The notes beneath the pieces are model-generated. The model had not been told where the DNA came from. It saw only the letters and a program-made list of their open reading frames with translations, and did not search any database. DNA of 64,000 nt from Antrihabitans stalactiti (GTDB lineage: Bacteria; Actinomycetota; Actinomycetes; Mycobacteriales; Mycobacteriaceae): NCBI RefSeq assembly GCF_012932915.1, contig NZ_VCQU01000005.1, forward strand, positions 1 through 64,000, in the 5' to 3' direction. A program made the position numbers and the translations under genes. Below, one piece after another: positions 2,463 through 63,497 of this stretch; the stretch's first letter is position 1; each line of letters starts with the position of its first letter.

Positions 2463-3218
2463 GTGGAGCTGAATTTCGGCGCCGGAAACGACGGGCTGTT
2501 GGTTCCGGTGATGTGGCTGTTTCTTGCAGTCCTCGTCACGTTCGTGGCGACGCGACTGATCACGCGACATATTCGGGCCAAGTCGAGTCGGGAACCGGCG
2601 GAGGCAACCACGGAAGTATTTCGCGACATCACCATTGGCGGTGTGCACATTCACCATCAGGTCTTCGGAATTCTGTTGATGGCAGTCGTCGGAGTCGCGC
2701 TGATCGCAACGACTCCCGAAGGCACTGCGCTGTACATCTTTTCGGCCGCGTTCGGAGTTGGGCTCGCCCTCACCCTCGACGAGTTCGCTTTGTGGCTGCA
2801 CGTCGACGATGTGTATTGGAGTACCGACGGACGTAAATCGATCGACGCAATCTTCTGTGCGCTGGCGATCACCGGTGTGCTGATCGGCGGATCGGAGTTT
2901 GTCAGCGGCAAGATCGGTTCATCGGCGTGGTGGGGCTCGATCGGCTACCTACTCCTTGGATTGGCGATCTCAGTCGTCTGCATGCTGAAAGGAAAATTCG
3001 TCACCGGAATTGTCGGCGTCATGTTCGAACCTATTGCGATCGTCGGTGCGATTCGGCTCGCGAAACCGGACTCGTGGTGGGCCCGCCGCCGGTATGCCGA
3101 CCGACCCGCTCGCCTTGCACGCTCGCAGGCTCGATTCGACGACAAATACGACGCTCGCTGGAACCGAATGCGTGACCTCGTTGCCGGCGAACACGGCGCC
3201 TCACCCAAACCCTCGTGA
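2463..3218 (+). CDS. Integral membrane protein, about six TM segments
   Basis: 251 residues from a GTG at 2463; an internal ATG at 2511 is an alternative. About six hydrophobic segments are visible. A conserved-looking GVHIHHQVFG motif precedes the second, and LTLDEFALWLHVDDVYW, rich in His and Asp, follows the third. The C-terminal 50 residues are basic and cytoplasmic-looking. I recognise it only as an uncharacterised actinobacterial membrane protein; the His cluster could bind metal. The TGA stop (3216-3218) lies inside the palindromic repeat at 3215-3254. Confidence 0.75.
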   Translation: MELNFGAGNDGLLVPVMWLFLAVLVTFVATRLITRHIRAKSSREPAEATTEVFRDITIGGVHIHHQVFGILLMAVVGVALIATTPEGTALYIFSAAFGVGLALTLDEFALWLHVDDVYWSTDGRKSIDAIFCALAITGVLIGGSEFVSGKIGSSAWWGSIGYLLLGLAISVVCMLKGKFVTGIVGVMFEPIAIVGAIRLAKPDSWWARRRYADRPARLARSQARFDDKYDARWNRMRDLVAGEHGASPKPS

Positions 3219-3254
3219 GTCCTTTCGGAGTCTATAGACTCCGAAAAGACTCAC
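3215..3254. repeat. 40-bp palindromic repeat, copy 1
   Basis: Arms gtgagtcctttcggagtc and gactccgaaaagactcac around tata; one mismatch (C for T at arm position 8). C-G type stem pair. It lies between convergent genes and supplies the TGA stops of both: 3216-3218 on the plus strand and 3253-3251 on the minus strand. It probably acts as a bidirectional terminator. Confidence 0.93.
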
Positions 3255-3976
3255 AACCTATGTGCGGCAATGCCTTCGCGGAAGTAGTCACCGTCGGACA
3301 GAGTGGCGTCGCCGAGTGAGTTCGAGTACGCGCGAAACTGTGACTTGCTGACATCAAGTGCGCGTTCGGGTTTTGCGACGAGCTGGCCGGCGAGCGCCGC
3401 CACGGCGTCGTCCAACTCGGCATCGCTGACCACCCGATGGACCAACCCAATACGGTGTGCGGTCGCGGCGTCGAAGCGGTCGCACAACATCACGATCTCT
3501 CGTGCACGCGATGCACCCACCTCGGCGATGAGTCGCGGGACGGCGCCCCAGGTCATGGGGATGCCGAGGTCGACCTCGGGTAGCGCGAAGGACGTCGTCT
3601 CCGTCGCGACGCGGAAGTCGCACGACAGCGCAAGAGCGAATCCGCCACCGAACACATGACCGTGCAGCCTGGCGATCGTGACGACCTCGCAGTCGGCGAT
3701 CGCTCGGCAGGCTCGGTCGCCGATCTGGGAGCGCCACCGACGTTCCCGTTCGCCGGTCCCGCCGCGGCCGGGCGGATTCTTCAGATCTGCTCCCGCGCAA
3801 AAGGATCGGCCACGACCACCGAGCACGATCGCCTTGAGGTCGAAGCGCCGAGCAGCCCCGTCGAACACCTCGGCAATGTCGGTCAATGTCGCGTCGTCCA
3901 GGGCGTTCAAGGAGTCGGGACGGTTCAGCCACACCTGCAGCACCGGACCGTCCTGGCTGAGCTCGAGCGTGCTCAC
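3251..3976 (-). CDS. Enoyl-CoA hydratase/isomerase (crotonase) family protein
   Basis: 241 residues from a GTG that overlaps the stop of the P450 gene by 4 bp (GTGA), so translation is probably coupled. The crotonase fold is clear: LNRPDSLNALD, the oxyanion-hole segment SFCAGADL (Cys60), and HGHVFGGGFALALSCD. At the position of the first catalytic Glu of classical hydratases (GGGxE) it has Ala114. The second Glu is kept in ALPEVDLGIP (Glu134). It may therefore act as an isomerase, hydrolase or decarboxylase rather than a hydratase. It is the last gene of the TetR-P450-crotonase operon, and its stop codon lies in the palindromic repeat. Confidence 0.88.
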   Translation of the reverse strand: MSTLELSQDGPVLQVWLNRPDSLNALDDATLTDIAEVFDGAARRFDLKAIVLGGRGRSFCAGADLKNPPGRGGTGERERRWRSQIGDRACRAIADCEVVTIARLHGHVFGGGFALALSCDFRVATETTSFALPEVDLGIPMTWGAVPRLIAEVGASRAREIVMLCDRFDAATAHRIGLVHRVVSDAELDDAVAALAGQLVAKPERALDVSKSQFRAYSNSLGDATLSDGDYFREGIAAHRL

Positions 3977-5271
3977 GCTGATTTCTCCAGCCGTGCGGGC
4001 AGTCGCTCGAGCCTGCGTAACGCAGGGTTGCCGTCCCAGCGGGGCTGCCCGGTGACGGTGATGGCGGCGACCTGGTCTGCGAGGTGAGTCAGGAACAGGC
4101 GCGCCTCCATACGCGCGAGCTGCGCGCCGAGGCAGAAATGGATGCCGAACCCGAAGGCGATGTGATCGCTGGCGTCGCGATCGATCCGGAAAGTATCGGG
4201 GTCTTCGTAGCGGCGAGGGTCGCGGTTGGCCGCGCCGAAGAGCATCAGTACTCGTGCGCCTGCCGGGATCGTCACGTCGCCGATCGGGTAGTCGCGAATC
4301 GCGGTGCGGTAGTAGCCCTGAATCGGTGCGAAGAAGCGGAGGGCTTCGTCCACCGCACCGGATGCGAGCGCGGGGTCGTCGCGCAACTGCTGATACTGAT
4401 CGGGATGCTCGGAGAACTGCAGCAGGAGGGTGCCGAGCAACGTTGTCGTCGTCTCGTGACCCGCGATCAGAAGCAGCAACGCGAACCAGAACAGCTCGTC
4501 GTCGCTGAGGCTGCCGTCCTCGGTCGAGGCGATGAGCTTGCTGAGTAGATCGGTTCCGGGATTCTGCCGGCGGAGTTCGAACTGGTCGTGGAAGTAGCGG
4601 TGCAGCGCGGTGACCGACCCGATCATTCTTCCCGCCCGCAGCAGGGATTTCGGATTCCATTCGACGGCCATGCCCTGCAACGCGCCGTCGGACCAGCGGC
4701 GAAAGTCGTGCATGTCCGAGTCGGGCACGCCGAGCAATCGCGCGGTCACCCACAGTGGCAGCGGCGCAGCGACGCGCCCGATCAGGTCGTCGGCCGGGAA
4801 GCCTGCTGCGTTGGTGACCAGTTCGCGAGCGTAACGGTCAATCTCCGGCTCGAGCTTTGCGAGCGCTTGCGGGTTGAAGTCCTTGACTGCCAGCTTGCGC
4901 AGGCGGGTGTGGTCGGGCTGGTCGATGGTCAACATCATCGGCAGCTGGCTGCGCAGCCGCAGGATCCCTTCGGCCGATGAGAGCGCGTCGTGTGCGCGGC
5001 ATGCGGTGCGTAACTCGTTGTGCCCATTGATGATCCACAGCCCGCGCTTGCGGCTGTAGTGCACCGGACCGGAGGAGTGCAGTGCTTTGTAGGCCGGGAA
5101 CGGGTCGGCGATCACGTCTCGATCCAGCGGGTCGAAGGAGGTGAGCGGCGCTTTCGCCGGATGGGTGGACCGTGCAGTCAGGGCTGACGCCGCCTCCCGA
5201 ACACCGGAATCCGCAATCCGGCGCACGACGCCGGCGGCTGTTCGCACATCGGCGATGGTCGTATCGGTCAT
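3973..5271 (-). CDS. Cytochrome P450
   Basis: 432 residues, the normal size for a soluble bacterial P450. The I-helix oxygen-activation motif AGHETTTT, the ExxR helix (DEALRF) and the haem-thiolate loop FGFGIHFCLGAQLAR (Cys380 as iron ligand) are all intact. It should hydroxylate a hydrophobic substrate with electrons from a ferredoxin/reductase encoded elsewhere. The start overlaps the end of the TetR gene by 4 bp (ATGA), and the crotonase gene overlaps its end, giving a tight three-gene operon. The crotonase partner suggests oxidation of an acyl-CoA or terpenoid-like substrate, but this is inferred from context only. Confidence 0.95.
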   Translation of the reverse strand: MTDTTIADVRTAAGVVRRIADSGVREAASALTARSTHPAKAPLTSFDPLDRDVIADPFPAYKALHSSGPVHYSRKRGLWIINGHNELRTACRAHDALSSAEGILRLRSQLPMMLTIDQPDHTRLRKLAVKDFNPQALAKLEPEIDRYARELVTNAAGFPADDLIGRVAAPLPLWVTARLLGVPDSDMHDFRRWSDGALQGMAVEWNPKSLLRAGRMIGSVTALHRYFHDQFELRRQNPGTDLLSKLIASTEDGSLSDDELFWFALLLLIAGHETTTTLLGTLLLQFSEHPDQYQQLRDDPALASGAVDEALRFFAPIQGYYRTAIRDYPIGDVTIPAGARVLMLFGAANRDPRRYEDPDTFRIDRDASDHIAFGFGIHFCLGAQLARMEARLFLTHLADQVAAITVTGQPRWDGNPALRRLERLPARLEKSA

Positions 5272-5960
5272 GGCTGGGTCACTTCCGTCAGGTCCTTCAC
5301 GGCGTGACGGACGATGAAATCGACAACGGTGTCGCCGTAGCGGCGCCGGAATTCCTGATCCTCAGGGTCGCGCAGGATCGACCACACGGCGATCAGCCCC
5401 AACCCCAACACTCCGGTGGCCGCGGCATCGGTATCGAGGTCGGCGCGGAAATACCCACGCCGGATGCCGACGACGTAGTACTGCTCGATCACCGTGTGCA
5501 TCAGGTCGGTCAGGCCGGACATCCCGCTAACGGCCCGCTCGTCGATCGACGGCAGCTCTCGCATCAGAAACCCGACGCTGCGGTGCTCGACGGCGATCAG
5601 GTCGAATGCTTTCGTCGCAATATCGGCTGCACGTGCCCGGTATTCGGCCAGGTCGTTGATCTGCTCCGCGGCGTTGTTGTCCTCGAAGACCTTGCCGAGG
5701 CGTTCCATCATCGACGCGACGACAGCGTCGAGCACGTCGCGCTTGTCTTCGAAGTAGCGGTAGAAGGTGCCCTGCCCGACACCGGCTTCCTCGGCGATAT
5801 CGGACACGCGTGTCGCGTGATAGCCGAGTCTTCCGAACACCTCGGCTGCTGACCGAACCAGCTGCGCTTCGGTGTCGGCGCGCCGTTGCTCGGCCCGGGT
5901 GAGCTGGGTTTTTTCGCTCGGCATACCTGGACCGTACAAGCGGACGGACGAGTCCGTCAA
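5268..5960 (-). CDS. TetR-family regulator of the P450 operon
   Basis: 230 residues from 5960; an in-frame ATG at 5924 (MPSEKTQLTRAEQRRADTE) is an equally good start, preceded by ccaggt. The N-terminal TetR helix-turn-helix is clear (VSDIAEEAGVGQGTFYRYFEDKRDVLD), followed by an all-helical ligand-binding domain. As first gene of the operon it is probably an autoregulator controlling the P450 and crotonase. Only 10 bp separate the upstream start from the repeat at 5971-6010, so the promoter must lie in or beside that palindrome unless 5924 is the true start. Confidence 0.9.
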   Translation of the reverse strand: MTDSSVRLYGPGMPSEKTQLTRAEQRRADTEAQLVRSAAEVFGRLGYHATRVSDIAEEAGVGQGTFYRYFEDKRDVLDAVVASMMERLGKVFEDNNAAEQINDLAEYRARAADIATKAFDLIAVEHRSVGFLMRELPSIDERAVSGMSGLTDLMHTVIEQYYVVGIRRGYFRADLDTDAAATGVLGLGLIAVWSILRDPEDQEFRRRYGDTVVDFIVRHAVKDLTEVTQP

Positions 5961-5970
5961 TATTGCGGTT

Positions 5971-6010
5971 GTGAGTCTTTTCGGAGTCCAGGGACTCCGA
6001 AAAGACTCAC
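5971..6010. repeat. 40-bp palindromic repeat, copy 2
   Basis: Perfect arms gtgagtcttttcggagtcc and ggactccgaaaagactcac around ag. Symmetry continues outward through ggtt and aacc (5967-6014, 48 bp). C-G type. It begins directly behind the stop of the nitrilase gene (6016-6014, minus strand) and lies upstream of the TetR gene. Confidence 0.95.
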
Positions 6011-6013
6011 AAC

Positions 6014-6973
6014 CTAGTGGGAGATGTGCTGCCCGATGAGCTTGCGAGCTTCGTAATTCGCCTTGCCGTGCAAGTTGGCCAGGTCGAAAGTGGCGCGAAC
6101 AGAGGCCGTCATGTCGGGGATCCAGAAGCGGTCGGCGATCGGATCCAGAGGCTGCGGGTCAGCCAACTCGATGGTCGCCGCGACGTGACCTTCACCGTCT
6201 TTTTCGGTGAGCCGCGCGAGAATAGTGCCGTCGCGTTCGGTGATCTGGGTTTCGCCGAGCATGCTCGTGCGGTAGGGGATGCCGGGCAGTCCAGGCATGT
6301 GCATGGTGACCGGGCCGACGTGGCTGGCATGCACGACCGGTGCGCCGACAAGTCGTGCGAATTGCCCGGGTAGCCGGCGTGCAAGTTCGGTTTGCAGCCG
6401 ATGTTCACGCCTGCCCCACCAGCCGAGGGGGCCGAACCAGTTGTTCGGCGTTGTCGGCCAGCACATGCCACCGAGCACGGCGTCGACGCGACCGCGCAGC
6501 CGCGCTGCAGTGCGATAGCGTGCCCACTCCCAGCCGCAGACGAGACCGACCGTGCCCAACGACGGACTTTCGACGACGCCATCGTCGCTGCCGCCGGTGT
6601 AGAAGTTCTGCTCCCACATCGTCGGGATGTCCTTGTCGTGGGCATTGACCGTGCCATCCGGTTCGGCGAGCACGTAGTGCCCATAGGCGTCGCCGTCGCG
6701 TTCGGACAGGTAACCCCCGCCGACGATGACGTTCAGTTCGCGCGCGAGGCCGGTCAACAACTGATACGGCGCACCGAGTTCGGGCCGGGGCACGGTCCGC
6801 ATCGCGGGATGGTGCACGTTCGGTGACGACGCCGCCTCGGGCACGATGATCACGTCCGGACCGTGTTGCCGGTGGGCGTCGCGGATGAGGTTTTCGAGCC
6901 GGACGAGGTTGTTGTCGACGTCGGCGAGCGCGAGGGCGGGTTGGACGGCGGCGACGGTGATTGTGCGAGCCAT
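6014..6973 (-). CDS. Carbon-nitrogen hydrolase (nitrilase superfamily)
   Basis: 319 residues with the complete Glu-Lys-Cys triad: Glu46 in IIVPEAASS, Lys114 in HDKDIPTMWEQ and Cys146 in LVCGWEWAR. It should cleave a non-peptide C-N bond (amide, carbamoyl or nitrile) in the cytoplasm. The ATG at 6973 has a ribosome site (aggaacacc) overlapping the end of the upstream monooxygenase-reductase gene, which stops 7 bp away, so the two are co-transcribed. An oxygenase followed by a C-N hydrolase suggests stepwise degradation of an N-containing, perhaps aromatic amide or nitrile, compound. Substrate class is inferred. Confidence 0.9.
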   Translation of the reverse strand: MARTITVAAVQPALALADVDNNLVRLENLIRDAHRQHGPDVIIVPEAASSPNVHHPAMRTVPRPELGAPYQLLTGLARELNVIVGGGYLSERDGDAYGHYVLAEPDGTVNAHDKDIPTMWEQNFYTGGSDDGVVESPSLGTVGLVCGWEWARYRTAARLRGRVDAVLGGMCWPTTPNNWFGPLGWWGRREHRLQTELARRLPGQFARLVGAPVVHASHVGPVTMHMPGLPGIPYRTSMLGETQITERDGTILARLTEKDGEGHVAATIELADPQPLDPIADRFWIPDMTASVRATFDLANLHGKANYEARKLIGQHISH

Positions 6974-10055: not shown

Positions 10056-10067
10056 CCCCCACCCCTC

Positions 10068-10107
10068 GTGAGTCTTTTTGGAGTCCAGGGACTCCAAAAA
10101 GACTCAC
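10068..10107. repeat. 40-bp palindromic repeat, copy 3 (longest symmetry)
   Basis: Perfect arms gtgagtctttttggagtcc and ggactccaaaaagactcac around ag, T-A type. Outer flanks cccacccctc and gaggggtggg extend perfect symmetry to 60 bp (10058-10117). It begins 12 bp behind the TetR stop and ends 29 bp before the next start. The block 10050-10113 is identical to 10887-10950. Confidence 0.96.
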
Positions 10108-10136
10108 GAGGGGTGGGATGCAGCAGACTCGACCGC

Positions 10137-10892
10137 GTGAGCTCCTCGATCGCAGATCCCGGGATTGCCCTAGCGGCGTTGTGCGCCGTAATGGTGGTGC
10201 TCGCGACCGTCGTCTATCGGGTCGCGCACCTCGACAACCTGTTCGCCGTCCCCGCCGCTGCAGTGCGAGGAGCAGGCCAACTGGCGATCGTGTCGCTCGT
10301 CCTCGCCGCCGCGCTGACCCATCTCTGGTCGTCGATTCTCGTACTTCTCGTCATGTTCGCCGCCGCGGTGGCGACCTGCGCCCGCCGCGCCCGAGCAGGC
10401 TGGAGCGGGGTGTGGCTCGCGGTGTCGTTGGCCAGCGGCGTCGGTGCGGTCGTGCCGCTGATGCTGCTCAGTGGCGTCGTGCCATTGGACGGCTACGCGC
10501 TCGTCCCCGTCGCAGGCATCGTCCTCGGCGGGGCGATGACAGCGACCACGCTCGGAACGAGGCGCGCGCTCGATTCGATCGAGACGCGCTGGGGTGAGGT
10601 CGAAGCGGGCTTGAGTATCGGTCTGAGCGCTCGGGACGCGCACATGGAAGTCGCGCGGTCGGCCGCGCAAGATGCACTGCTGCCGGGGCTCGATCAGACA
10701 AGGACTGTCGGGTTGGTGACTTTGCCCGGTGCGTTCGTCGGCGTGCTCCTTGCGACGGGTTCGGCGGTCCAAGCCGGTGCGGTGCAAATTCTGGTCCTCG
10801 TCGGACTGCTCCTCGCACAGACCTGCGCAGTGGCGGTCACCCTCGAACTCGTCGCCCGAAATACTGTGCGACGGGTCCGGCCCCAGACCTGA
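10137..10892 (+). CDS. UPF0014 (FetB-like) ABC permease
   Basis: 251 residues, about seven membrane segments, in the UPF0014 family whose characterised members include the iron-export permease FetB. The family signature is visible in EAGLSIGLSARDA and in LLPGLDQTRTVGLVTLPGAF. The frame is open into the palindromic repeat, giving a spurious upstream ATG at 10068; the GTG at 10137 is chosen because it precedes the first hydrophobic helix and leaves the repeat untranslated. No FetA-type ATPase gene is adjacent, so the partner must be elsewhere. Iron or metal homeostasis is a family-based guess. Confidence 0.85.
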   Translation: MSSSIADPGIALAALCAVMVVLATVVYRVAHLDNLFAVPAAAVRGAGQLAIVSLVLAAALTHLWSSILVLLVMFAAAVATCARRARAGWSGVWLAVSLASGVGAVVPLMLLSGVVPLDGYALVPVAGIVLGGAMTATTLGTRRALDSIETRWGEVEAGLSIGLSARDAHMEVARSAAQDALLPGLDQTRTVGLVTLPGAFVGVLLATGSAVQAGAVQILVLVGLLLAQTCAVAVTLELVARNTVRRVRPQT

Positions 10893-10904
10893 CCCCCACC
10901 CCTC

Positions 10905-10944
10905 GTGAGTCTTTTTGGAGTCCAGGGACTCCAAAAAGACTCAC
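10905..10944. repeat. 40-bp palindromic repeat, copy 4
   Basis: Identical to copy 3 in the core (T-A type, centre ccaggg). Symmetry extends through cccctc and gagggg (10899-10950). It begins 12 bp behind the permease stop, the same distance as copy 3 from its gene. The identical block also covers the ACC TGA end of both genes. Confidence 0.96.
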
Positions 10945-11035
10945 GAGGGGGTTCGTGGACTGGCTACGATAGTTGTGCTGGCAAAAGGTATTGCAGTCGT
11001 AGGTCGGGCGGCCGCGGGAGACGAAAGGTGTTGCC

Positions 11036-12193
11036 GTGGGCCGAGATTGGCTGGTGGTCGTCAATCTCGGGTCCTTTGCGATGGTCGGCGTCGCGCTGGT
11101 TCTGGTCGTGCTGTGGGGGATCGACCGCAGCCGTGTGCACCCACTGTTCTTCGCGGGCATGATCGCGCTCTACTTCGCCGGCACCCTCGCGCTGTCGCTG
11201 AATGCCGATATTGCGCTGCTCGCCTCGATCCACGGAATCCTGTTTCCCATTGCGTTCGTATTGCTAGCCGACGGACTGTTGCGACGCTCCGGTCTACGGC
11301 TCGGGCATTCGATCGCGGCGAGCTACATCGTCGTGCTGGCTGTTGCCGTGTGGTACTTCGCGTATGTATCGCCGCTGATGGTGGCGCGAATCGTCACGCA
11401 GAATCTCGGGACCGGCCTGTTGCTGCTGTTCGTCGCTGCCAAGCTGCGGGCAGCGGTCCGTCCGCAGCTCGCGGACCGGGTAACTGTGATCGCCACGACG
11501 ACGCTCGGCGTCGCCCTCCTCGTCAATGTGCTGCTCGCACCGTTCTCGAATGTGCCGCGTGAGATCACGTCGGACGCGGAATTGGACGCCTACCTTGCGT
11601 CCCCGCTGGAGGTGGGCATCATCATCGCAAGTGCGGTGATCATGCCCGCGTTGCTCGTCACGCTGCTCGCCGTGACCGTCGCGGACCTCGTTGCCGACCT
11701 ACGATTCCAGCGCGATCGAGACGAACTGACCGGTTTGCTCAATCGCCGGGGATTCCTCGAGCATGCCCAGTTGACTTTGCGTCGCGCGCCTGCGAGCACG
11801 TTGGTGCTGGCAGATCTCGACTTCTTCAAAGGGGTCAACGACGCGCTCGGCCACGCGGGTGGGGACTATGCGCTGGCGACATTCGCCCGGGTGCTGCGAT
11901 CCGCGCCCGATGTCGGCCAGGTGTCCGGCCGGATCGGCGGCGAGGAGTTTGCCGTGCTCCTGCCGGAAATGGACTCGCATTCCGCGATCGAATTTGCCGA
12001 GTCCGCACGGGCGCGCCTAGCTGCGCAAGCGATCATCTACGGCGGGGCGAGCGCGTCGCTGACGGCGAGCTTCGGGGTCGCGACCGCAACGCCGTCGATG
12101 TCGTTGCCCGCCTTGATAGACGCCGCCGACCGTGCGCTGTATGCGGCAAAGGCGAAGGGACGGAACTGCACTGCCGTTCGCGAGGCGAGCTGA
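11036..12193 (+). CDS. Membrane-anchored diguanylate cyclase (GGDEF)
   Basis: 385 residues. The first 220 form about seven membrane helices, followed by a GGDEF domain with FQRDRDELTGLLNRRGF and an intact GGEEF active site (301-305), so it should make cyclic di-GMP from GTP. The RxxD inhibitory site normally just upstream is not apparent, so product feedback may be absent. Start GTG at 11036 has gaaaggtg upstream. The membrane module may sense a small molecule or redox signal but matches no family I can name. It is bracketed by palindromic repeats on both sides, so it is probably an independent transcription unit. Confidence 0.93.
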   Translation: MGRDWLVVVNLGSFAMVGVALVLVVLWGIDRSRVHPLFFAGMIALYFAGTLALSLNADIALLASIHGILFPIAFVLLADGLLRRSGLRLGHSIAASYIVVLAVAVWYFAYVSPLMVARIVTQNLGTGLLLLFVAAKLRAAVRPQLADRVTVIATTTLGVALLVNVLLAPFSNVPREITSDAELDAYLASPLEVGIIIASAVIMPALLVTLLAVTVADLVADLRFQRDRDELTGLLNRRGFLEHAQLTLRRAPASTLVLADLDFFKGVNDALGHAGGDYALATFARVLRSAPDVGQVSGRIGGEEFAVLLPEMDSHSAIEFAESARARLAAQAIIYGGASASLTASFGVATATPSMSLPALIDAADRALYAAKAKGRNCTAVREAS

Positions 12194-12226
12194 ACCATCG
12201 GAAGTCGCGGCAACGACTTGACCCTC

Positions 12227-12266
12227 GTGAGTCTTTTTGGAGTCCAGAGACTCCAAAAAGACTCAC
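12227..12266. repeat. 40-bp palindromic repeat, copy 5
   Basis: T-A type with centre ccagag; symmetry extends through ccctc and gaggg (12222-12271). It lies 33 bp behind the stop of the GGDEF gene and about 100 bp before the next start. Confidence 0.95.
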
Positions 12267-12372
12267 GAGGGGTTGGGTCGGTTGCCCGCAACCCGAACAA
12301 TGGGGCTCCCACCTGTGCCGATGCTGGCCTAGTGTGAAGGTGGGTCGGGCACCACGAACCCCTGGAGCGATC

Positions 12373-18681: not shown

Positions 18682-19284
18682 GTGCGTATCGAGATACTGG
18701 TTTTCGAAGGTTTCGACGCCCTCGACGTCGTCGCTCCATGGGAGGTATTCGTCCGCGCGGCGGCCTTGGACACGAACCTCGACGTCGCCCTCGTTCGCGT
18801 CGGCGGGCCACAACTCATCCGGGCAGCGGACGGACTGGAGCTGAACGTCGTCGAGGAGCTCGGCAATCCCGACGCGCTCCTCGTTCCGGGCGGCAGCTGG
18901 GTTTCGGGTGAAGACACCGGCGTGCCAAAGGAATTGCGCCTCGGCACCCTGCCGCGCCTGATCGGCGAGCTATCGAGTTCGGTCCGCTGGGTGTCGTCGG
19001 TCTGTACGGGCGCACTCCTGCTCGGCGCAGCAGGCCTGCTGCAAAACCGCAACGCGACGACGAATCATGCAGCACTGGAAGAAATTTCCCGCTACGGCGC
19101 CCACGTACGCAATCACCGCGTCGTCGACGACGGCAATATCGTGACGTGCGGCGGCGTCACGGCAGGAATCGATTTGGCGCTCTGGCTCGTCGAGCGCGAG
19201 ATCGGCGCCGATGCTTCTCGGGCGCTCGCCAGTGCGATCGAGTATCCGGTGCAACCGGACGTGTGGCGTCGCCCACCCTCGTGA
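18682..19284 (+). CDS. DJ-1/PfpI family protein
   Basis: 200 residues from a GTG at 18682. The DJ-1/PfpI fold is complete: LVFEGFDALDVVAPWEVF, LLVPGGSW, the nucleophile elbow SSVCTGALLLGAAGLL (Cys108) and TNHAALEE. The sequence is closest to the isonitrile-hydratase/AraC-amidase-like subgroup, without a DNA-binding domain. It could be a hydratase, deglycase-like or thiol stress enzyme. It follows the NmrA-like gene and may share its redox-controlled promoter. Its TGA stop (19282-19284) is supplied by the palindromic repeat. Confidence 0.87.
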   Translation: MRIEILVFEGFDALDVVAPWEVFVRAAALDTNLDVALVRVGGPQLIRAADGLELNVVEELGNPDALLVPGGSWVSGEDTGVPKELRLGTLPRLIGELSSSVRWVSSVCTGALLLGAAGLLQNRNATTNHAALEEISRYGAHVRNHRVVDDGNIVTCGGVTAGIDLALWLVEREIGADASRALASAIEYPVQPDVWRRPPS

Positions 19285-19320
19285 GTCTTTTAGGAGTCCA
19301 GAGACTCCTAAAAGACTCAC
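19281..19320. repeat. 40-bp palindromic repeat, copy 6
   Basis: Perfect arms gtgagtcttttaggagtc and gactcctaaaagactcac around caga, the A-T type: both arms changed together relative to other copies. Symmetry extends through accctc and gagggt (19275-19326, 52 bp). It lies between convergent genes; the plus-strand gene stops inside it and the minus-strand gene stops just past it. Confidence 0.96.
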
Positions 19321-19325
19321 GAGGG

Positions 19326-20258
19326 TCAGGGGGTTGCGCGGCCCACGACGAGATCGGTTGTCTGCGTGACCAGGTCGGGCTGGGAGAACTGGATGTAATG
19401 GTCACTGCCGGTGGCGAGGATCTGCGGCGTGCGGGGAGCCAGGGCGACGAAGGCGTCTTCGGCCTTCTGAAAGCCCAAGTTGAGAACGTCGGACGTCAAT
19501 CCCGGCGGCAGGGTCGGTACGGCAAACGGCTCGGTCTTGGTGAGGACCGCAAGCGGCATTGCGGGTAGCGCGGGAGCAGCCTGCACCTGCGCGATGCTCG
19601 CGTCGATGTCTACGCGCTCGGAGTCCGGACTCTTCATCGACGGCATCGGAGCCTGCTCGAGCGGCGGGTTGAGCAGTTGGTCGCGATAGATCGCCCACAC
19701 CGGACCGAGCGTCTCCGGCAACGTGGGGCTCAGCGAGTCCACGAACACGATGCCTTTGACCTGGTCAGGGTACGTCTTGCCGTACAGCAGGCTGATGAGC
19801 CCGCCCAGCGAATGGCCGACCAGAACGAAGGGTGCTGCGACTTCAGCGGCTGCCAGCGTTGCATGCAGTTCGGCGACCAGGTCGGCTGCAGTACGAGGCT
19901 GTGGCACCGCCGTGCTGCGGTCGGTCAGCGGACCGTCGCCTTCGTACCGAATGGTCCCCGGGCGGTCGTACGCGCAGACGCGGTGTGACTTCACGAGCGC
20001 CGGGAACACGGCCGGCCCTTTCGCCGGCGCGAGCAATGACAGTGCATCGTCGCTCGTCCAAGTGTCGGACGAATCGTGATAACCAGAGACGAGGACGACC
20101 GTCGGCGCTCCGCTGGAGTTGCTGCCCTTGCAGGTCAGGTAGATGTTTCGGCCACCGATATCGACCGACCGGGCGAAATCGTCGCTGTCGTCTTTCGTCG
20201 ATGACGAGCACGACGTCAGCGTGAGCACGGCAATTGCAGCGATAGCCAACGAACGCAT
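19326..20258 (-). CDS. Lipoprotein alpha/beta-hydrolase
   Basis: 310 residues. A signal peptide with lipobox (VLTLTSCSSS) predicts a lipid-anchored extracytoplasmic protein. The alpha/beta-hydrolase core shows the oxyanion region VVLVSGYHDSSD and nucleophile elbow VGHSLGGL; a GSDHYIQFSQP segment near the C-terminus supplies the catalytic His. Two cysteines (LTCKGS, RVCAYDRP) may pair. ATG 20258 has aaggag upstream. It is a monocistronic-looking gene converging on the DJ-1 gene across the repeat. Substrate unknown; an esterase or lipase role is likely. Confidence 0.88.
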   Translation of the reverse strand: MRSLAIAAIAVLTLTSCSSSTKDDSDDFARSVDIGGRNIYLTCKGSNSSGAPTVVLVSGYHDSSDTWTSDDALSLLAPAKGPAVFPALVKSHRVCAYDRPGTIRYEGDGPLTDRSTAVPQPRTAADLVAELHATLAAAEVAAPFVLVGHSLGGLISLLYGKTYPDQVKGIVFVDSLSPTLPETLGPVWAIYRDQLLNPPLEQAPMPSMKSPDSERVDIDASIAQVQAAPALPAMPLAVLTKTEPFAVPTLPPGLTSDVLNLGFQKAEDAFVALAPRTPQILATGSDHYIQFSQPDLVTQTTDLVVGRATP

Positions 20259-24457: not shown

Positions 24458-25102
24458 ATGACAACTGCGGAACGCTGGGACACTGTCTACGACAACGGCA
24501 ATGCGCCATGGGTGATCGGCCGCCCCCAACCGGCAATCGAGGAGTTGGAACGCGACGGCTGGATCCGCGGGCGGGTGCTCGATCCTGGTTGTGGCGCGGG
24601 TGAACACACAATCCTGCTGACGCGTCTCGGCTACGACGTGCTCGGTATCGATCTGTCGCCCAGCGCCGTTGCGGAGGCGCGGCGCAATGCCGCCGAAAAG
24701 GGCGTGCCCGAAGCAAGGTTCGAAGTCGGTGACTCATTGCACCTGGGCGACATCGGTTTGTTCGACACTGTCGTGGACAGCGCGTTGTTCCACATCTTCG
24801 GCACGGACCCCGAAGGGCGTGCACAGTACGTGCAGAGTCTGCATTCCGTCGTCAAACCCGGTGGGCTTGTGCACGTGCTGGCATTGTCGGACGCAGAACC
24901 CGGCTTCGGTCCGCGGATCGGTGATCAGCTAATCCGCGAATCATTCAGTACGGGATGGGAATTGGAAGAGCTGGGGCCGAGTCGCTATCACGGCCGCGTG
25001 ACCGCGTTGGTCGCCGACCAGGCTGCGCAGGCTGGGCTGCCGAGCGAGGGTCCCGTCGACACGACGGCGTGGCTGGCAAGAATCCGCCGGCTACCCTCGT
25101 GA
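24458..25102 (+). CDS. SAM-dependent methyltransferase
   Basis: 214 residues, class I methyltransferase. SAM-binding motif I is VLDPGCGAGEHT, followed by the acidic end of beta-2 (VLGIDLSPSAV) and motif III-IV region FDTVVDSALFHIF. The N-terminus (WDTVYDNGNAPWVIGRPQP) resembles thiopurine/tellurite-resistance (TehB-like) methyltransferases, so small-molecule detoxification is possible. ATG 24458 is preferred, with aagg upstream, over a possible start at 24443. It follows the monooxygenase gene after 93 bp. The TGA stop (25100-25102) is in the palindromic repeat. Confidence 0.87.
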   Translation: MTTAERWDTVYDNGNAPWVIGRPQPAIEELERDGWIRGRVLDPGCGAGEHTILLTRLGYDVLGIDLSPSAVAEARRNAAEKGVPEARFEVGDSLHLGDIGLFDTVVDSALFHIFGTDPEGRAQYVQSLHSVVKPGGLVHVLALSDAEPGFGPRIGDQLIRESFSTGWELEELGPSRYHGRVTALVADQAAQAGLPSEGPVDTTAWLARIRRLPS

Positions 25103-25138
25103 GTCTTTTTGGAGTCCCTGGACTCCAAAAAGACTCAC
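25099..25138. repeat. 40-bp palindromic repeat, copy 7
   Basis: Perfect arms gtgagtctttttggagtcc and ggactccaaaaagactcac around ct, T-A type; symmetry extends through cctc and gagg (25095-25142). It separates convergent genes and supplies both stop codons: TGA 25100-25102 (plus) and TGA 25137-25135 (minus). Confidence 0.96.
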
Positions 25139-26514
25139 GAGGAGATTCGCAGGACTCCGCTGAGCGTTCCTTGTAAGACTTCGCCGTCGCGTGTGATGAG
25201 CGGCGCGGTCTGCAGGGTGTCGTTGACTATCGTTCCGGGTAGGCCATGGGTGGCCTTCACCGCGCCGGTGTCCGGGTCGAGGACCGTGAACATGAAGCCG
25301 TCCAGCGGAGTCGTGGCGTCCGGGCCGACCCGAGTGGTCGTGTAGATGTTGCCGTCGGCAGTCGAAATCCGCGGGACGGCCGCGCTACGGACCTGGTTGT
25401 CCCAGACTGTGCGGCAACCACTTTCGTCCACGTCGACGCGCGTCATCCCGCCCACGAACGGTGCCGATTCCGGCTGCGCGGGGCCGGCATCGCCAGGGAC
25501 CGTGGGGTATGGATAGCCGTAGGTGCCTGCGACGAATACGGACCCGCCGATCCCGATGGGGGAGTTCTCGCTCCCCGGACCGCCTTGGGTGAGCACGGGT
25601 TGCGAGCAGACCAATTCACCACTGCCGGAACGGTATACGAGCAGCCGGACCTGGCGGTCGGCGTTGTCGACGATGGTGAGGTAGTCGCGCCCGAAGTAGG
25701 TGGGCGTCGATCCGGTGCCCCAACTGAGCTGACCCGGTTTGCGTGCGGAGCCACGGTCGTACGTTGCGCGCCAAGCGATTCGGGGACGACCTGCGCCGTC
25801 GGCGGTCAACTCGTAGAGCGCGTGTGTCGACGCGATCGCGACGCTGCCGTTCGGTGCGGCCGAAATGCTGTTCGCTACGTGCTCGCCTGCCGGCAGGTGC
25901 ACGGTCTCCACGGACCCAGCCGCATCGACCACGCCGATGAGGCCGTTGCCGGTCGCGAACCACACGTTGCCGTCCCAGTCCGGCACCAGACCGGTCGCGC
26001 CGTCGTCGGACGGGATGACGCCTGCGAGGTCGACAGCATGGTCGACGGTCAGGTGCCAGGCCCCTGACCGATCACGCGCATGCCCGACTCGGACCAGTTG
26101 CCGGTTCCCATCGACGGCGATCAATCGGTCGTCGTTGTCGAGGTAGGCGTACACCCCGCCGAGCAAGCTGCCCTTGGCGAGCGCGAGCGAAGCCAGCGGG
26201 CCGGTGGGGTCGAGCAGATAGACGGTCGGGACCTGACCGAGAATCGCCGTGCACAGCGCAACAACGAGCCCGTCCGACCCCTGCAGAATCGTCGGACATG
26301 CGGCAGCCAAGGGATATCCGGAAACCGAGACGGTGGCCGCCCCAGGTCCGGAAAGTGTTGTCGAGTCCGATGATTGGGCGTCGCCGTGCATCGTGGCTGT
26401 GCCCTGCGGACCGAGGAATGGATTGTGGGGCGGCACCTGATCCCACGCCGATTCGGCCGATGCCGGCGTTGCGACGAACGCAACGGTGCAGGCGATCAGT
26501 CCGACCGTGCACAT
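25135..26514 (-). CDS. Secreted beta-propeller-like protein
   Basis: 459 residues with a Sec signal peptide (MCTVGLIACTVAFVATPASA). The mature protein is a run of repeated beta-blade-like units with Asp/Gly/Asn turns (YLDNDDRLIAVDGNRQLV, VPDWDGNVWFATGNG, APNGSVAIASTHALYEL, STADGNIYTTTRVG), as in PQQ- or SMP-30-like propellers. No catalytic motif is evident. Two Cys pairs may form. ATG 26514 is preceded by gggga; longer starts would run into the divergent gene. Probably an extracellular binding or structural protein; function unknown. Confidence 0.75.
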   Translation of the reverse strand: MCTVGLIACTVAFVATPASAESAWDQVPPHNPFLGPQGTATMHGDAQSSDSTTLSGPGAATVSVSGYPLAAACPTILQGSDGLVVALCTAILGQVPTVYLLDPTGPLASLALAKGSLLGGVYAYLDNDDRLIAVDGNRQLVRVGHARDRSGAWHLTVDHAVDLAGVIPSDDGATGLVPDWDGNVWFATGNGLIGVVDAAGSVETVHLPAGEHVANSISAAPNGSVAIASTHALYELTADGAGRPRIAWRATYDRGSARKPGQLSWGTGSTPTYFGRDYLTIVDNADRQVRLLVYRSGSGELVCSQPVLTQGGPGSENSPIGIGGSVFVAGTYGYPYPTVPGDAGPAQPESAPFVGGMTRVDVDESGCRTVWDNQVRSAAVPRISTADGNIYTTTRVGPDATTPLDGFMFTVLDPDTGAVKATHGLPGTIVNDTLQTAPLITRDGEVLQGTLSGVLRISS

Positions 26515-39586: not shown

Positions 39587-41002
39587 ATGGACGCTGTGCC
39601 CGAACGCGTCGGCAGCCACGAGGTGGTCCCGACTGCCGACGGCACCGACTACGCCTCGCTGCGGCGGCGCGCCGTGCCACGGCGGGAGCGATACCTACTA
39701 GGCAAGCAGTTGCGTCATGACACACCGAGATCGTCGTTGGGCGAATGGAAGACCACGACAGACCGTCCGCGCACGCTTGCCCTGATCGATGCCTCGCATC
39801 GCGGCAGGATCGAGTCACTTGTTCCCGTGCGGGTGGGCCGAATGGTGGCCTCGCCCTACGGGTTTCTTCGCGGGTCCGCGATCGTGATGGCACACGATCT
39901 CGCGATGCTGCCCGCGACCGGCATCCGACCGGTGATCTGCGGGGACGCACACCTCGGCAACTTCGGCTTCTACGCTTCGCCGGAACGCGACCTCGTCCTC
40001 GACCTCAACGATTTCGACGAGGCGCATCCTGGCGGCTGGGAGTGGGACGTGCGCCGCCTGACCGCAAGCATTTGGATTGCGGGGAGACAGAATTCGGCGA
40101 CAGAGGCGCAGTGTGGGAGTGCGGTCGAATCGTGTGTTGCCATGTATCGCAGCCATATTCGCTGGCTGGCCGAGCAGCCTTTACTGGCACGGTCTTTCGA
40201 ACGCCTGGATCGTGACCGCCTGCAGACGACGGCGTCGAACAAGTCGCTGCGCAAGGAGATCAAACGCTCTGCGAAGCGGGCACGGCGGCGGGTGAGCGAC
40301 CGGGCGCTGCCCAGGTTCACCGAAGAGGCGAAAGGTGGGCGGCGCATCGTGACCGAGCCGCCGTTGATCACTCGCCTGCCCGAAGTCGAGGCCGAGCAGC
40401 TTGCCCAAGGCCTCGACGACTACCTCGACACCTTGCCAAGCCATTGGCGCCGGATGCTCAGTGGCTACACGCTGGTCGATGTAGCGCACAAGGTCGTCGG
40501 GGTCGGCAGCGTCGGCTTGCGCGCGTACGTGGCACTCCTCGAAGGCAGCAGTCCGGACGACGTCGTCTTCCTCCAGCTCAAGCAGGCCCGACGATCGGTC
40601 GTGGCACCGTTCGTGCACGGCGACTCCGCATGGCACGACCACCAGGGCCGCCGAGTCGTCGAATACCAGCAGGCGCTACAGACGGTCAGCGATCCGCTGC
40701 TCGGCTGGACGACCGTCGAGGGCCGCCAATATTACGTGCGACAGTTTCGAAACATGAAGGGCGCCATCGCGATCGATCATCTGTCGCCCTCGGCCCTCAC
40801 CGATTACGCAGGAATATGCGGCAGGCTGCTGGCGAAGGGGCATGCGCGGACAAGCGGCGCGTCCATGATCGCCGGCTACGTCGGGAAGTCCGACCGACTC
40901 GAGACCGCGCTCTGCAACTTTGCCCGCGCGTATGCCGACCAGACCGAGATCGACCACGGCCTCATGGTCGAAGCTGCCGCGAACGGAAAGCTACCCCTGT
41001 GA
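39587..41002 (+). CDS. DUF2252 family protein
   Basis: 471 residues, DUF2252. Family motifs include MAHDLAMLPATG, ICGDAHLGNFGFY and DLNDFDEAHPGGWEWDVRRL, in which GDAHLGN and DFDEA recall the catalytic and metal-binding loops of aminoglycoside-phosphotransferase-like kinases. A kinase-like small-molecule enzyme is a reasonable inference, unproven for the family. ATG 39587 has no evident ribosome site. Its end overlaps the convergent PaaK-like gene by 12 bp. Confidence 0.87.
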   Translation: MDAVPERVGSHEVVPTADGTDYASLRRRAVPRRERYLLGKQLRHDTPRSSLGEWKTTTDRPRTLALIDASHRGRIESLVPVRVGRMVASPYGFLRGSAIVMAHDLAMLPATGIRPVICGDAHLGNFGFYASPERDLVLDLNDFDEAHPGGWEWDVRRLTASIWIAGRQNSATEAQCGSAVESCVAMYRSHIRWLAEQPLLARSFERLDRDRLQTTASNKSLRKEIKRSAKRARRRVSDRALPRFTEEAKGGRRIVTEPPLITRLPEVEAEQLAQGLDDYLDTLPSHWRRMLSGYTLVDVAHKVVGVGSVGLRAYVALLEGSSPDDVVFLQLKQARRSVVAPFVHGDSAWHDHQGRRVVEYQQALQTVSDPLLGWTTVEGRQYYVRQFRNMKGAIAIDHLSPSALTDYAGICGRLLAKGHARTSGASMIAGYVGKSDRLETALCNFARAYADQTEIDHGLMVEAAANGKLPL

Positions 41003-42370
41003 GGGGAGTGGGACGAATCGGCGAAGTTTGCCAGTCGCTTCGTGTCGTCGCAACCGGTCGGTGATTTGAATCCGAATGGCCGGGTCGGAGAGCCCCTGCG
41101 CGCGGAGAGCGGTGACGACCGCAGCGGTCAGCGTGGTGATATCCGGTGAGCCGACGGTGAGAATGTCTGCGCCACCGACAGTTTGAGTGACCTGATATTC
41201 GGAAACTCGGGGATCTGTGCCGAGCACGTAGCGAAAGGCGCTCGCGGGCACTGTGATTGTGCCGTATTGGAAGTCGTCGTCGCGGCGGCCGCCGATGTCC
41301 GCCACCCGGGCGAAGGCACTCCCGCACGGGCATGGATCGGGAAGCCACGTCACCTGGTCGCCGAGGTCGTAGCGGATGAACGGAAAGGTCCGGTTGGCCA
41401 GACCGGTAGCCAGGGTTCGAACGGCGGGCTCATCTGGACCAACCGGCATGCCGTTCTCGTCCACGCGCTCGAGCACCACTTCGTCCTCGCAGACGTGCAG
41501 TCCCTCGCCGCGCGCGCAGCCGACGGCCTGGACACCGATCTCGGTAGAGCCCCAGAGGTTGTGCACCGGCACGGACCAGGCATCCCGGATGGCTTGGCGG
41601 TCCTCGTCGAGCAGCGGTTCGGAGTTGGTGCTCACGCGCACGGGCGAAATCTTCAGTTCGCCGGCCGACGCCGCCCGAGCCAGTCGACCGATCACCGACG
41701 CGTAGCCGACCATATGCGTGGGCTGGGCGGCCGCGACAGCGGCGAGGATCTCGTCGAACGGCACCCCGACCGGTATCACTGCGGTCTCCATCCCGGCGGC
41801 CGTCGGCACGTCGAACAACGGGGTGCTGGCGTGTGGCGGCGTCCCGGCCGCCAGGACTGCAAGCCGCGCCGGACCGTTCCCCTGAGTCCGGAGCTCTTCG
41901 CGCGCTTGCACCCGCCAAGCGAGGCACGCTGCTGAGACGTAGTAGTTCCAATCCCAGACGTACACTCCGCGAACGCCGCTCGACCCACCCGAGCTGAAAA
42001 TCTGTTCGTCGCCCGGCGTGTACGAAAACCATTGTTGCTCAGCCAATATCCGCTCGGCCTGTGCCCGGTCGAGGTCGTTGACTGTGACGATGCTGTCCCA
42101 TTCGTTCTGTGCGTCCTGCTTGGTCATCATCGGCACCGACGCAAGATCCGCGACGGTGGCCGTCGCGGGATCGATGTCGCTCAACCGCGACGAGTGAAAG
42201 GTGGACCGTTCCTTGGCGTAACCGAGCAAAGCCCGCAGCCGGTGGGTTTGGTGGCGCTCGATCTCTTCTCGGGACCAATCCAGCCGACCGATGTGATCGA
42301 TGAGTGCCGCCTGGACCGTGTGCAGATGCGCGGCGCGCAAGCGCTCGTACGCAGAAACCGCTGTCGACAT
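40991..42370 (-). CDS. PaaK-like adenylate-forming ligase
   Basis: 459 residues related to phenylacetate-CoA ligase. The ATP-binding P-loop reads FSSGGSSGVRGVYVWD; LWGSTEIGVQAVGC and the acceptor Asp in FIRYDLGDQVTW follow, with a zinc-finger-like CPCG. It should activate a carboxylic acid as an adenylate for transfer to CoA or another acceptor. ATG 42370 has ggtggag upstream. It lies on the same strand just beyond the exporter of the type III PKS locus but is separated from it by a palindromic repeat, so it could be a fourth member of that locus with its own promoter, or unrelated. Confidence 0.85.
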   Translation of the reverse strand: MSTAVSAYERLRAAHLHTVQAALIDHIGRLDWSREEIERHQTHRLRALLGYAKERSTFHSSRLSDIDPATATVADLASVPMMTKQDAQNEWDSIVTVNDLDRAQAERILAEQQWFSYTPGDEQIFSSGGSSGVRGVYVWDWNYYVSAACLAWRVQAREELRTQGNGPARLAVLAAGTPPHASTPLFDVPTAAGMETAVIPVGVPFDEILAAVAAAQPTHMVGYASVIGRLARAASAGELKISPVRVSTNSEPLLDEDRQAIRDAWSVPVHNLWGSTEIGVQAVGCARGEGLHVCEDEVVLERVDENGMPVGPDEPAVRTLATGLANRTFPFIRYDLGDQVTWLPDPCPCGSAFARVADIGGRRDDDFQYGTITVPASAFRYVLGTDPRVSEYQVTQTVGGADILTVGSPDITTLTAAVVTALRAQGLSDPAIRIQITDRLRRHEATGKLRRFVPLPSQG

Positions 42371-42389
42371 CGAAGCTCCACCTAACCTC

Positions 42390-42429
42390 GTGAGTCTTTT
42401 CGGAGTCTATAGACTCCGAAAAGACTCAC
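42390..42429. repeat. 40-bp palindromic repeat, copy 8
   Basis: Perfect arms gtgagtcttttcggagtc and gactccgaaaagactcac around tata, C-G type, extended by cctc and gagg (42386-42433). It lies 6 bp behind the stop of the ABC exporter (minus strand) and 19 bp upstream of the next gene's start on the same strand. Confidence 0.96.
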
Positions 42430-42435
42430 GAGGGG

Positions 42436-44151
42436 TTAGGCAACCTGCAGGGATTTCGCGGGGTAGGTGACCTCGGCGACCTGGCCGTATTCGAGCTTGA
42501 CGAGCTGGTCAGCGCAGTCGAAGTAGCGGTCGTCGTGGGTGATGACGATGACCGTCTTACCGCGATTACGGAGGTTCACCAGGATCTCCTTGTAGAAGAC
42601 TTCCCGGAAGCGAGGCTCCTGGTCGGCGGCCCATTCGTCGAACAGGTAGATCTGGCGATCCTCGAGCAGAGCGGTCAGCAGCGCGAGCCGCTTCCGCTGC
42701 CCTTGCGACAGCGCGATCGTGGATAGTTGCCCATCCTTGACCGTCACCTTGTGCGCGATCTGCAGCTCTTCGAGGTAGTGGCGCACCTCGTCGTCGATGC
42801 CGGTCCGGTCGAAGCCGAGGTAATCCTCGAACAGGTGGAAGTCGGTGAAGATAGCCGACGTGTTCTGGCGGTACCACTCGACGTTGCTCTGGTCGATCAT
42901 CTCGTCGTCGAGGACGAGTGAACCGGTCCGCGGGACGTAGAGTCCGGTAATCAGTTTCGCCAGAGTCGATTTGCCGCTTCCGTTGCCACCCACGATGAAC
43001 GTGATCTGCCCGGGTTCGAAGGTGAGGTCGATCGGTCCGAGCGCGAATCCCGACCCGTCGTCCGGCGGCGGACCCATCGGGTGCGGACCCTTCGGACCCG
43101 GACCGCCCGGACCAGGCGGCGGCGGTGGGGGCGTGTGCATCTCGTAGCTGTAACTGACATTGGCCAGCTCCAGCCGTGCCTCGCCCGCTGCGGGACGCTC
43201 GGTGTAGGGCAGCAGATCCTCGTTCGGCCCCGAGGTCATCGACAGGTTCATTCCGCGAATCTTCTTCAGTGCCACGTCACCTCGCAACAGGTCCGGGATG
43301 CGGTGCATGAAGTTCTGCATCGGCATCGACAAGAACGTCGTGATCAGGACGTAGGCAACCATGGTTTCTTGCGGCACATGCATCGCGGCGGCGAGCACGA
43401 AGAGGATGAGCGCCATCGTCAGGAGCTGGAACGTCTGCCCGAGTCCTTGTGCCACAGAGAATTTCGAGCCGGCTTCGACGTTCTGCGCCCGCAATGTGCC
43501 CGCGGTGCCGAGCAGGTGCCGGTCCATGAAGTCACGGCGACGGCCACGGTGGAGCTTCAGTTCCTTGATGCCGAGCGTGACCGCTTGGAAGGACCGGAGC
43601 AGCACATCCTCGTTCTCCCGAGCCTCGTGGTAGATCTTGCGCACTCGCTTGAGGAACATCTCGACGCACGCGATGCTCACCAACGTTCCTGCAACAGTGA
43701 TGGCGAAGATCGGACCCGACACGGCTGCGAGGAAGACGAAGCAGCCGATGATCGTCGTGACGTCGACGCAGATGCTCGGAATCGCCGTGACGGCCTGCGA
43801 CAGCGACCGCACGTCTTCGGTCAGGGTGGCGATGAGCCGGTGTGTACCAAGGCGTTCCAGCTGCTCGAGTGGTGCCGAGACTACGCCGGAGCTGAGGTCC
43901 GCGCGCAGCTGGAAGATCGCTTCCTGAGCGAGACGGATCAGCAGCACCTGCGACAACACCCCGCTGGCAAGTACGACCACCCCCGTCACGGCGAAGCGCG
44001 TAAGCATGTCCGGCGGCTGGGGTTCCGGTGACACGACACTTCTGATGAGGATCAGCAGGTAGGTGTTCGCGGCACCGCAGACGAGGCCGGCGGCGATGAT
44101 GGCGACAATCCGTTGCCAGGAGACCGAGATGAGGAATTTGATGAGTTGCAT
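42436..44151 (-). CDS. PvdE/SyrD-type ABC exporter with proline-rich insert
   Basis: 571 residues: six-helix membrane domain fused to an ATPase. Walker A is VGGNGSGKSTLAKL; the signature is LSQGQRKRLALL rather than LSGGQ; and YLFDEWAADQEPRFREVFYKE with ITHDDRYF are hallmarks of the PvdE/SyrD/YojI cyclic-peptide exporter family. A 26-residue Pro/Gly insert (from HTPPPPPP to GPPPDDG) interrupts the beta-hairpin just after the A-loop tyrosine; it is not a normal family feature. Gene spacing of 29 bp behind the type III PKS gene makes it the likely exporter of that product. A palindromic repeat follows the stop. Confidence 0.92.
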   Translation of the reverse strand: MQLIKFLISVSWQRIVAIIAAGLVCGAANTYLLILIRSVVSPEPQPPDMLTRFAVTGVVVLASGVLSQVLLIRLAQEAIFQLRADLSSGVVSAPLEQLERLGTHRLIATLTEDVRSLSQAVTAIPSICVDVTTIIGCFVFLAAVSGPIFAITVAGTLVSIACVEMFLKRVRKIYHEARENEDVLLRSFQAVTLGIKELKLHRGRRRDFMDRHLLGTAGTLRAQNVEAGSKFSVAQGLGQTFQLLTMALILFVLAAAMHVPQETMVAYVLITTFLSMPMQNFMHRIPDLLRGDVALKKIRGMNLSMTSGPNEDLLPYTERPAAGEARLELANVSYSYEMHTPPPPPPGPGGPGPKGPHPMGPPPDDGSGFALGPIDLTFEPGQITFIVGGNGSGKSTLAKLITGLYVPRTGSLVLDDEMIDQSNVEWYRQNTSAIFTDFHLFEDYLGFDRTGIDDEVRHYLEELQIAHKVTVKDGQLSTIALSQGQRKRLALLTALLEDRQIYLFDEWAADQEPRFREVFYKEILVNLRNRGKTVIVITHDDRYFDCADQLVKLEYGQVAEVTYPAKSLQVA

Positions 44152-63286: not shown

Positions 63287-63381
63287 AGATTTCTCCTCAC
63301 TCCGGACGCTGGCCGAAAAGGCCTGCTACACAGCGACACTCGGAGTTGAAGAGCAAATTCAACAGACGGGAACTAAATCGA

Positions 63382-63397
63382 TGTGACTCGAATCACA
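63382..63397. promoter_or_regulatory. CRP/GlxR-type binding site
   Basis: tgtga-ctcgaa-tcaca is a perfect match to the CRP/GlxR consensus (TGTGA-N6-TCACA). It lies 116 bp upstream of the sugar symporter gene, which leads the glucan operon on the minus strand. cAMP-dependent control of sugar uptake and storage is the natural reading. Confidence 0.75.
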
Positions 63398-63457
63398 CTA
63401 GGGCCGATTAATGCCTCTGGCAAGAGTCCGGCGCGAACCGGTGCAACGCCGACGCTT

Positions 63458-63497
63458 GTGAGTCTTTTCGGAGTCCCTGGACTCCAAAAAGACTCAC
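63458..63497. repeat. 40-bp palindromic repeat, copy 9 (hybrid stem)
   Basis: Left arm gtgagtcttttcggagtcc is C type, right arm ggactccaaaaagactcac is T-A type, leaving one mismatch at the variable stem position (a G-U pair if read as minus-strand RNA). Symmetry extends through tt and aa (63456-63499). It lies 14 bp behind the stop of the HAD phosphatase gene. Confidence 0.94.

Follow-up and report, generated by a model that had tools for sequence, protein, structure and literature searches.

A superfamily of 42-bp palindromes with species-specific cores, mostly at gene ends, in Antrihabitans stalactiti and related actinobacteria

In actinobacteria, intrinsic terminators without a U-tract consist of a long hairpin just behind stop codons, and we know of no one sequence that ordinary terminators share genome-wide. 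Short extragenic palindromes have been described chiefly from proteobacteria, where their spread is ascribed to the transposase RAYT (REP-associated tyrosine transposase; REP, repetitive extragenic palindromic), as far as the accessible text of the papers that we found goes. The same partial texts report that REP elements serve as insertion-sequence targets (PMC8450116; PMC3733652) and describe the REP-type tetranucleotide (PMC8266576). Here we analysed a stretch of 64,000 nucleotides from Antrihabitans stalactiti (contig NZ_VCQU01000005.1, positions 1 to 64,000; "the window") that holds nine copies of a palindrome, named family A. The palindromes belong to a superfamily with fixed length, constant ends and paired arms, which lies at gene ends in the genome of the window (G000); the cores are species-specific and differ between genomes at one orthologous site.

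G000 comprises 6.76 Mb in 26 contigs, and contig C1 as a whole plus C22:1-444000 (1.62 Mb) formed the sample studied in detail. The genome held 215 forward and 215 reverse family A arms at no more than 2 mismatches and 204 whole A-type palindromes at no more than 3. A reversed-pattern control gave 1 and 0 matches to the arms, which rules out chance. The hundreds of copies expected by a preliminary description of the window are thus present, at a lower density than the one per 7 kb that it had extrapolated: 215 forward arms in 6.76 Mb correspond to ~1 per 31 kb, and no other part of the sample is as dense as the window, whose 64-kb bin contains 9 family A copies against 0-6 in the other bins.

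All these elements follow one format of exactly 42 bp, YGTGMGY-N28-RCKCACR, with a 19-bp stem and a 4-base loop, of which G000 contains 363 at no mismatch (control, 1). In the 1.62-Mb sample, the distance from YGTGMGY to RCKCACR was 28 in 101 cases, 24 in 14 and 20 in 7, with 0-5 cases at any other value between 10 and 46; those at 20 and 24 were, two excepted, overlapping registers of the same elements. After removal of 4 of the 101 cases, which had fewer than 12 of 21 pairs, 97 copies were left. Of these, 53 are family A, and the other 44 form family B with its kin (GTGCGCGMKTYTCACCCC type), which is the more varied of the two. The copies were nearly all solitary, with only 3 neighbour distances below 500 bp and a median of 9 kb.

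Family A was nearly invariant. Only 2 substitutions were found at 17 positions in 90 arms (45 paired 40-bp copies, of 50 places, in C1 and C22:1-84000, each arm being permitted up to 4 mismatches), and 3 in the 106 arms of the 53-copy set, which demanded the constant ends and is hence biased to intact copies. One position is free (T 44, A 35 and C 27 in the 53 copies), and it agrees between the arms in 41 of 53 copies, or 34 of 45 in the other set, versus 36% expected. The loops read CAGG, CAGA, CATA or TATA, on either strand. By eye, family B appeared asymmetric (G000:C1 46729, 259590 and 1131415), a GCGTCT arm often standing opposite a GATTTT or GAGTTT arm, so that copies are directional. 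Among the 50 family A places (1.26 Mb), 4 had no detectable second arm, single arms with more than 2 mismatches not being counted: two were cut by an insertion sequence, one stood truncated next to an ISL3-like element close to the end of a contig, and one had a 1-bp deletion. The data show a hairpin constrained in pairing as well as in sequence, with much uniformity inside the genome.

The nine window palindromes, all present where the preliminary description placed them, are the top nine short-loop inverted repeats of the window by rank and fit the 42-bp format without deviation. Each has a stop codon within about 33 bp, in agreement with the limit of about 35 bp first given. The copy at 10068 is no exception, as its apparently divergent setting was a gene-caller error. 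The statement that the arm 10-mer occurs only in paired form did not hold, since an unpaired aaagactcac at 136 belongs to a tenth, damaged copy. The features are as follows (plus and minus denote strands).

1-118: insertion-sequence end, inserted in the tenth palindrome.
About 119-145: tenth family A copy, cut by this insertion sequence; 27 bp left (GAGTC, loop and right arm).
3214-3255: family A palindrome, 42 bp; loop TATA, free position C, one arm substitution; overlaps the stop of the enoyl-CoA hydratase gene 3251-3976 (minus).
5970-6011: family A palindrome; loop CAGG; the stop of 6014-6973 (minus) lies 3 bp before it, and the predicted start of the TetR gene 5268-5924 (minus) ~46 bp on.
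10067-10108: family A palindrome; loop CAGG; 29 bp per arm with extended pairing; 12 bp past the stop of a TetR-domain open reading frame ending at 10055 (plus).
10904-10945: family A palindrome; loop CAGG; 12 bp past the stop of the UPF0014 gene 10191-10892 (plus).
12226-12267: family A palindrome; loop CAGA; 33 bp past the stop of the GGDEF gene 11036-12193 (plus).
19280-19321: family A palindrome in a convergent gap; loop CAGA; its own TGA is the stop of 18682-19284 (plus); 5 bp from the end of 19326-20258 (minus).
25098-25139: family A palindrome in a convergent gap; loop CCTG; its own TGA is the stop of both 24458-25102 (plus) and 25135-26883 (minus).
42389-42430: family A palindrome in a co-directional gap; loop TATA; 6 bp past the stop of the ABC (ATP-binding cassette) transporter gene 42436-44151 (minus) and 19 bp before the predicted start of 40991-42370 (minus).
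63457-63498: family A palindrome; loop CCTG; free position unmatched between the arms; 14 bp past the stop of a gene called at 63512-64183 (minus), which extends beyond the window end.

The link to gene 3' ends was upheld in the larger sample, for which genes were called by our own script, with at least one misplaced. A stop lay within 35 bp of 82 of the 97 copies; when copies were placed at random between genes 2000 times, the number averaged 19.1 and never exceeded 34. Occupied junctions numbered 43 of 273 where genes converge, 42 of 961 where they are co-directional and 4 of 272 where they diverge, and 7 of the 97 copies fell within called genes. The stop codon is a TGA of the element itself at 16 of 129 facing gene ends. 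The mean RNA folding energy of the copies was -29.9 kcal/mol, giving a stable hairpin directly behind the stop codon, as in an intrinsic terminator. Rfam 15 at the gathering score had no match in the window, and 19 loci gave 4 tRNA matches only; a mir-4504 match over one palindrome of locus L195 (E 0.37) was far under the cut-off and was judged to be chance.

The gap between hemD and hemB allowed orthologous slots to be compared at a single site. The comparison covered 29 genomes from five genera, mostly picked for carrying copies; hemB was recognised as NCBIfam porphobilinogen synthase above cut-off, and the upstream gene matches uroporphyrinogen-III synthase models below cut-off only. A palindrome was present in 23 of the 29, and in the six without one (G000, G001, G002, G041, G075 and G090) the gap is just 3-18 bp. 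The cores differed: GTGAGTCCTTYNGG in three genomes of genus g21 (one worn), a B-like core in G094, GTGMGCGGTTGAC in G080 and G064, GTGAGTGGTTGAGGAGTC (named family D) in five of g23, GTGYGCCTTTYYGGT in two of g23 and two of g10, GTGCGCCTTTATCA in two of g23, GTGCGCGGTTYCGGT in five of g27, and in G003 a core unique to that genome. Exactly 42 bp, with ends intact or nearly so, was found for 20 of the 23; in these, 96% of the stem cells were paired versus 70% after shuffling (maximum 75%, the shuffle ignoring relatedness), with up to five pair types per position. Two g23 genomes, G265 and G025, have the same flank, GGCCCGACGAAGGAGGGC, and different cores.

A search of related genomes with the A-type pattern (at most 3 mismatches) gave matches in 30 of the 401 genomes of the bacterial family, in 5 genera, with 0 in the rows of the control. 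A close variant of family A was found at at least 10 named loci, all from Antrihabitans stalagmiti among the matches listed. The superfamily pattern, without mismatch, occurred 211, 46 and 30 times in three congeners of G000, 25-115 times in six g21 genomes, 77 times in the sole g26 genome, and up to 243 times in g23 (Rhodococcus, as plasmid matches suggest), 171 in g6, 57 in g10 and 49 in g27. The counts in g6, g10, g23 and g27 vary widely inside the genus, several genomes being at background; controls reached at most 7, and g3, g9, g22 and g29 are among the genera at 0-8. Among 298 genomes drawn from the order, a further family, f14, reaches 266, and one f16 genome has 21; most of the remaining genomes searched were near background. 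Across genomes the cores are species-specific while length and ends stay fixed. Two of the congeners each show their own core, which is GTGCGCGGTTGGCGAGTC-like in G002 and GTGAGTGAARTTSRGTG-like in G001. Among loci L153-L172 we also saw a third palindrome type, CGCAGTGGTGCGGT..., without YGTGMGY ends, which recurs in G048 and was met once in G023 (L157:1371, L156:19900, L169:12878 in G048; L165:7977 in G023). An empty-site comparison within the genus gave no alignable gaps, the orthologues being mostly 55-90% identical as proteins.

Could these simply be ordinary bidirectional terminators, kept alike by selection alone and without copying between sites? Their gene-end position and hairpin are what such terminators would have, stretches of two congeners contain some long gene-end hairpins that form no repeated family there, and inverted-repeat arms near terminators are more conserved than spacers (PMC13155455, in its accessible part). 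However, terminators are defined by a stem-loop and not by a specific repeated sequence (PMC5217627, likewise in part), the copy number ranges from 30 to 363 inside one genus, and G265 and G025, compared at a single site, differ strongly in the core but hardly in the flanks. We consider this explanation improbable.

We favour, with a probability of roughly 0.55, the reading that the palindromes are REP-like hairpins that act at mRNA 3' ends and are homogenised by a process that is probably not RAYT. Behind convergent and last genes, they would work as bidirectional, probably partial terminators, or as stops and protectors of RNA 3' ends; between genes of one operon, they would be hairpins that tolerate read-through. 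We infer both this role at the RNA 3' end and a process that would recognise the constant ends and copy or convert cores between copies; such copying would make the copies within a genome grow alike. It is conceivable, and we put it forward tentatively, that the palindromes are a new class of self-homogenising or mobile elements, an undescribed machinery other than RAYT recognising the YGTGMGY ends and swapping the 28-bp core of hairpins already present at gene ends while positions are kept. If so, a species would give hundreds of these hairpins the same sequence.

Several observations weigh against the favoured reading. A U-tract was missing: the 10 nt downstream had a mean of 2.2 T, and at least 5 T were present at just 3 of 129 ends. 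The predicted next start lies within 30 bp of 19 of the 43 co-directional copies. The lack of a U-tract, taken with so little space before the next gene, argues against a terminator that is both simple and strong; the hairpins may still act in transcription termination. At 44 places, mostly in other genomes (the count takes in one G000 copy and one place entered twice), 20 copies were convergent, 17 co-directional, 4 divergent and 3 inside predicted genes, the last two groups being at odds with a role at gene ends. So is one of two copies fetched from the f14 genome G626, both with a Rhodococcus-like core: it lies between divergent genes, and the other gives the stop of both convergent genes. 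Two copies on Rhodococcus plasmids are away from annotated gene ends, the annotation being incomplete. Finally, family A is so nearly invariant that DNA-protein recognition, or a burst of copying in the recent past, would account for it as well as an RNA function would.

This last point leads to the main rival of a role at the RNA 3' end, a DNA-binding role. Here a sequence-specific protein would bind double-stranded or cruciform DNA at the paired constant heptamers and the species-specific core. The sites would serve chromosome organisation or form an inter-gene barrier, and would stand behind genes only because they are harmless there. Near-invariant arms with one free position, the strict spacing and ends that are constant across genera all agree with it. 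Arms that stay paired through changes across species do not, nor does the strong preference for gene ends over divergent gaps, though sites harmful to promoters would look alike. On balance such DNA-level sites are unlikely.

The preliminary description had named a RAYT-like transposase acting on REP-type elements as one possible disperser. High-copy extragenic palindromes within the REP-type range of 20-50 nt were indeed found, and insertion sequences target them as in REP systems (see below). However, a profile search for the Y1 transposase (PF01797) found none in G000, the same search being positive in 5 of 14 control genomes. Among 18 other genomes, it found none in 11, including G003 with about 200 copies; the remaining 7 (13 matches) are all g23, in which 7 of the 9 genomes searched had the transposase, a result that favours RAYT. 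Four of these Y1 loci were fetched (L232-L235) and contained no superfamily copy. The pooled family A flanks had no one-sided GTAG-type tag, which with both sides pooled would show in about half, and no clusters of alternating orientation like bacterial interspersed mosaic elements were seen, the copies being nearly all solitary. RAYT was rejected as the mover in G000, for want of a PF01797 match, and is disfavoured, though conceivable, in g23, where there are matches; RAYT behind the spread is unlikely, and REP elements moved by a Y1 transposase would be the least credible of the explanations considered here.

Insertion sequences repeatedly sit in the palindromes. For an insertion sequence with terminal TGTCCAGTCTCGACACATGTGGGAC, the 25-bp end was found at 8 places in G000, and in every case (8 of 8) it joins a family A palindrome at the same base, such palindromes being the sole target seen (window 1-118; L145-L152); most copies lie at contig ends. 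The 25-bp end had no match in three congeners at up to 3 mismatches, nor the 118-bp piece among plasmid records. A related insertion-sequence end at the start of C3 also sits in a family A copy. At the end of C1 (G000:C1 1173420 to end), a transposase gene, presumably ISL3-like, starts just behind a truncated family A arm, which marks a second insertion site inside the palindrome. This association could indicate that the palindromes descend, as miniature elements, from the ends of some DDE-type insertion sequence. Yet the insertion-sequence ends (TGTCCAGTC...) are unlike the palindrome arms and interrupt the palindrome, and no palindrome-ended insertion sequence was met, no systematic search having been made for one; we regard this origin as very unlikely.

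Carriage on phages or plasmids was likewise dismissed for family A, which had no match in viral contigs or in phage and plasmid records; the wider A-type and B-type patterns were also without a match in the viral contigs. A Rhodococcus-type query matched 3 Rhodococcus plasmids and, weakly, Deinococcus, and among phages gave only weak partial matches to enterobacterial phages. The family D query matched no plasmid.

A literature search, with most subscription papers outside its reach, yielded no account of the 42-bp palindrome superfamily among the papers listed, and the superfamily is apparently undescribed. A word search of the accessible text of one paper on palindromic repeats (PMC3733652) found no Rhodococcus, Actinobacteria, Nocardia, Amycolatopsis, Streptomyces, Mycobacterium or Corynebacterium. 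The present elements are hundreds of fixed-length gene-end hairpins in actinobacteria, several of whose genomes have no detectable RAYT, and they bear on how these bacteria end their transcripts. Such genomes, together with core differences under nearly unchanged flanks, make the spread and uniformity of such hairpin families testable in cultivable Rhodococcus.

Like REP elements and REPINs (REP doublets forming hairpins) spread by RAYT, the superfamily consists of short extragenic palindromes, hundreds to a genome, whose sequence varies with the species and which insertion sequences use as a target. Unlike them, its copies are fixed at 42 bp, carry the same constant heptamer in each arm, lack a sign of a one-sided GTAG/CGTC tag, and are solitary and strongly tied to stops; no Y1 transposase was found in G000 or in 11 of 18 other genomes. 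With the actinobacterial terminators that have no U-tract it shares the long hairpin just behind stops; ordinary terminators differ in that they are not known to share one sequence genome-wide. The pairs of uptake sequences that serve as terminators in Haemophilus and Actinobacillus resemble it, since there too a specific repeat folds into hairpins like those of terminators behind genes, at their 3' ends (PMC5217627, in its accessible part). The distinction from uptake sequences drawn in the preliminary description stands: single arms here are damaged copies only, in the stretches checked, and species differ in the core but not in length or ends.

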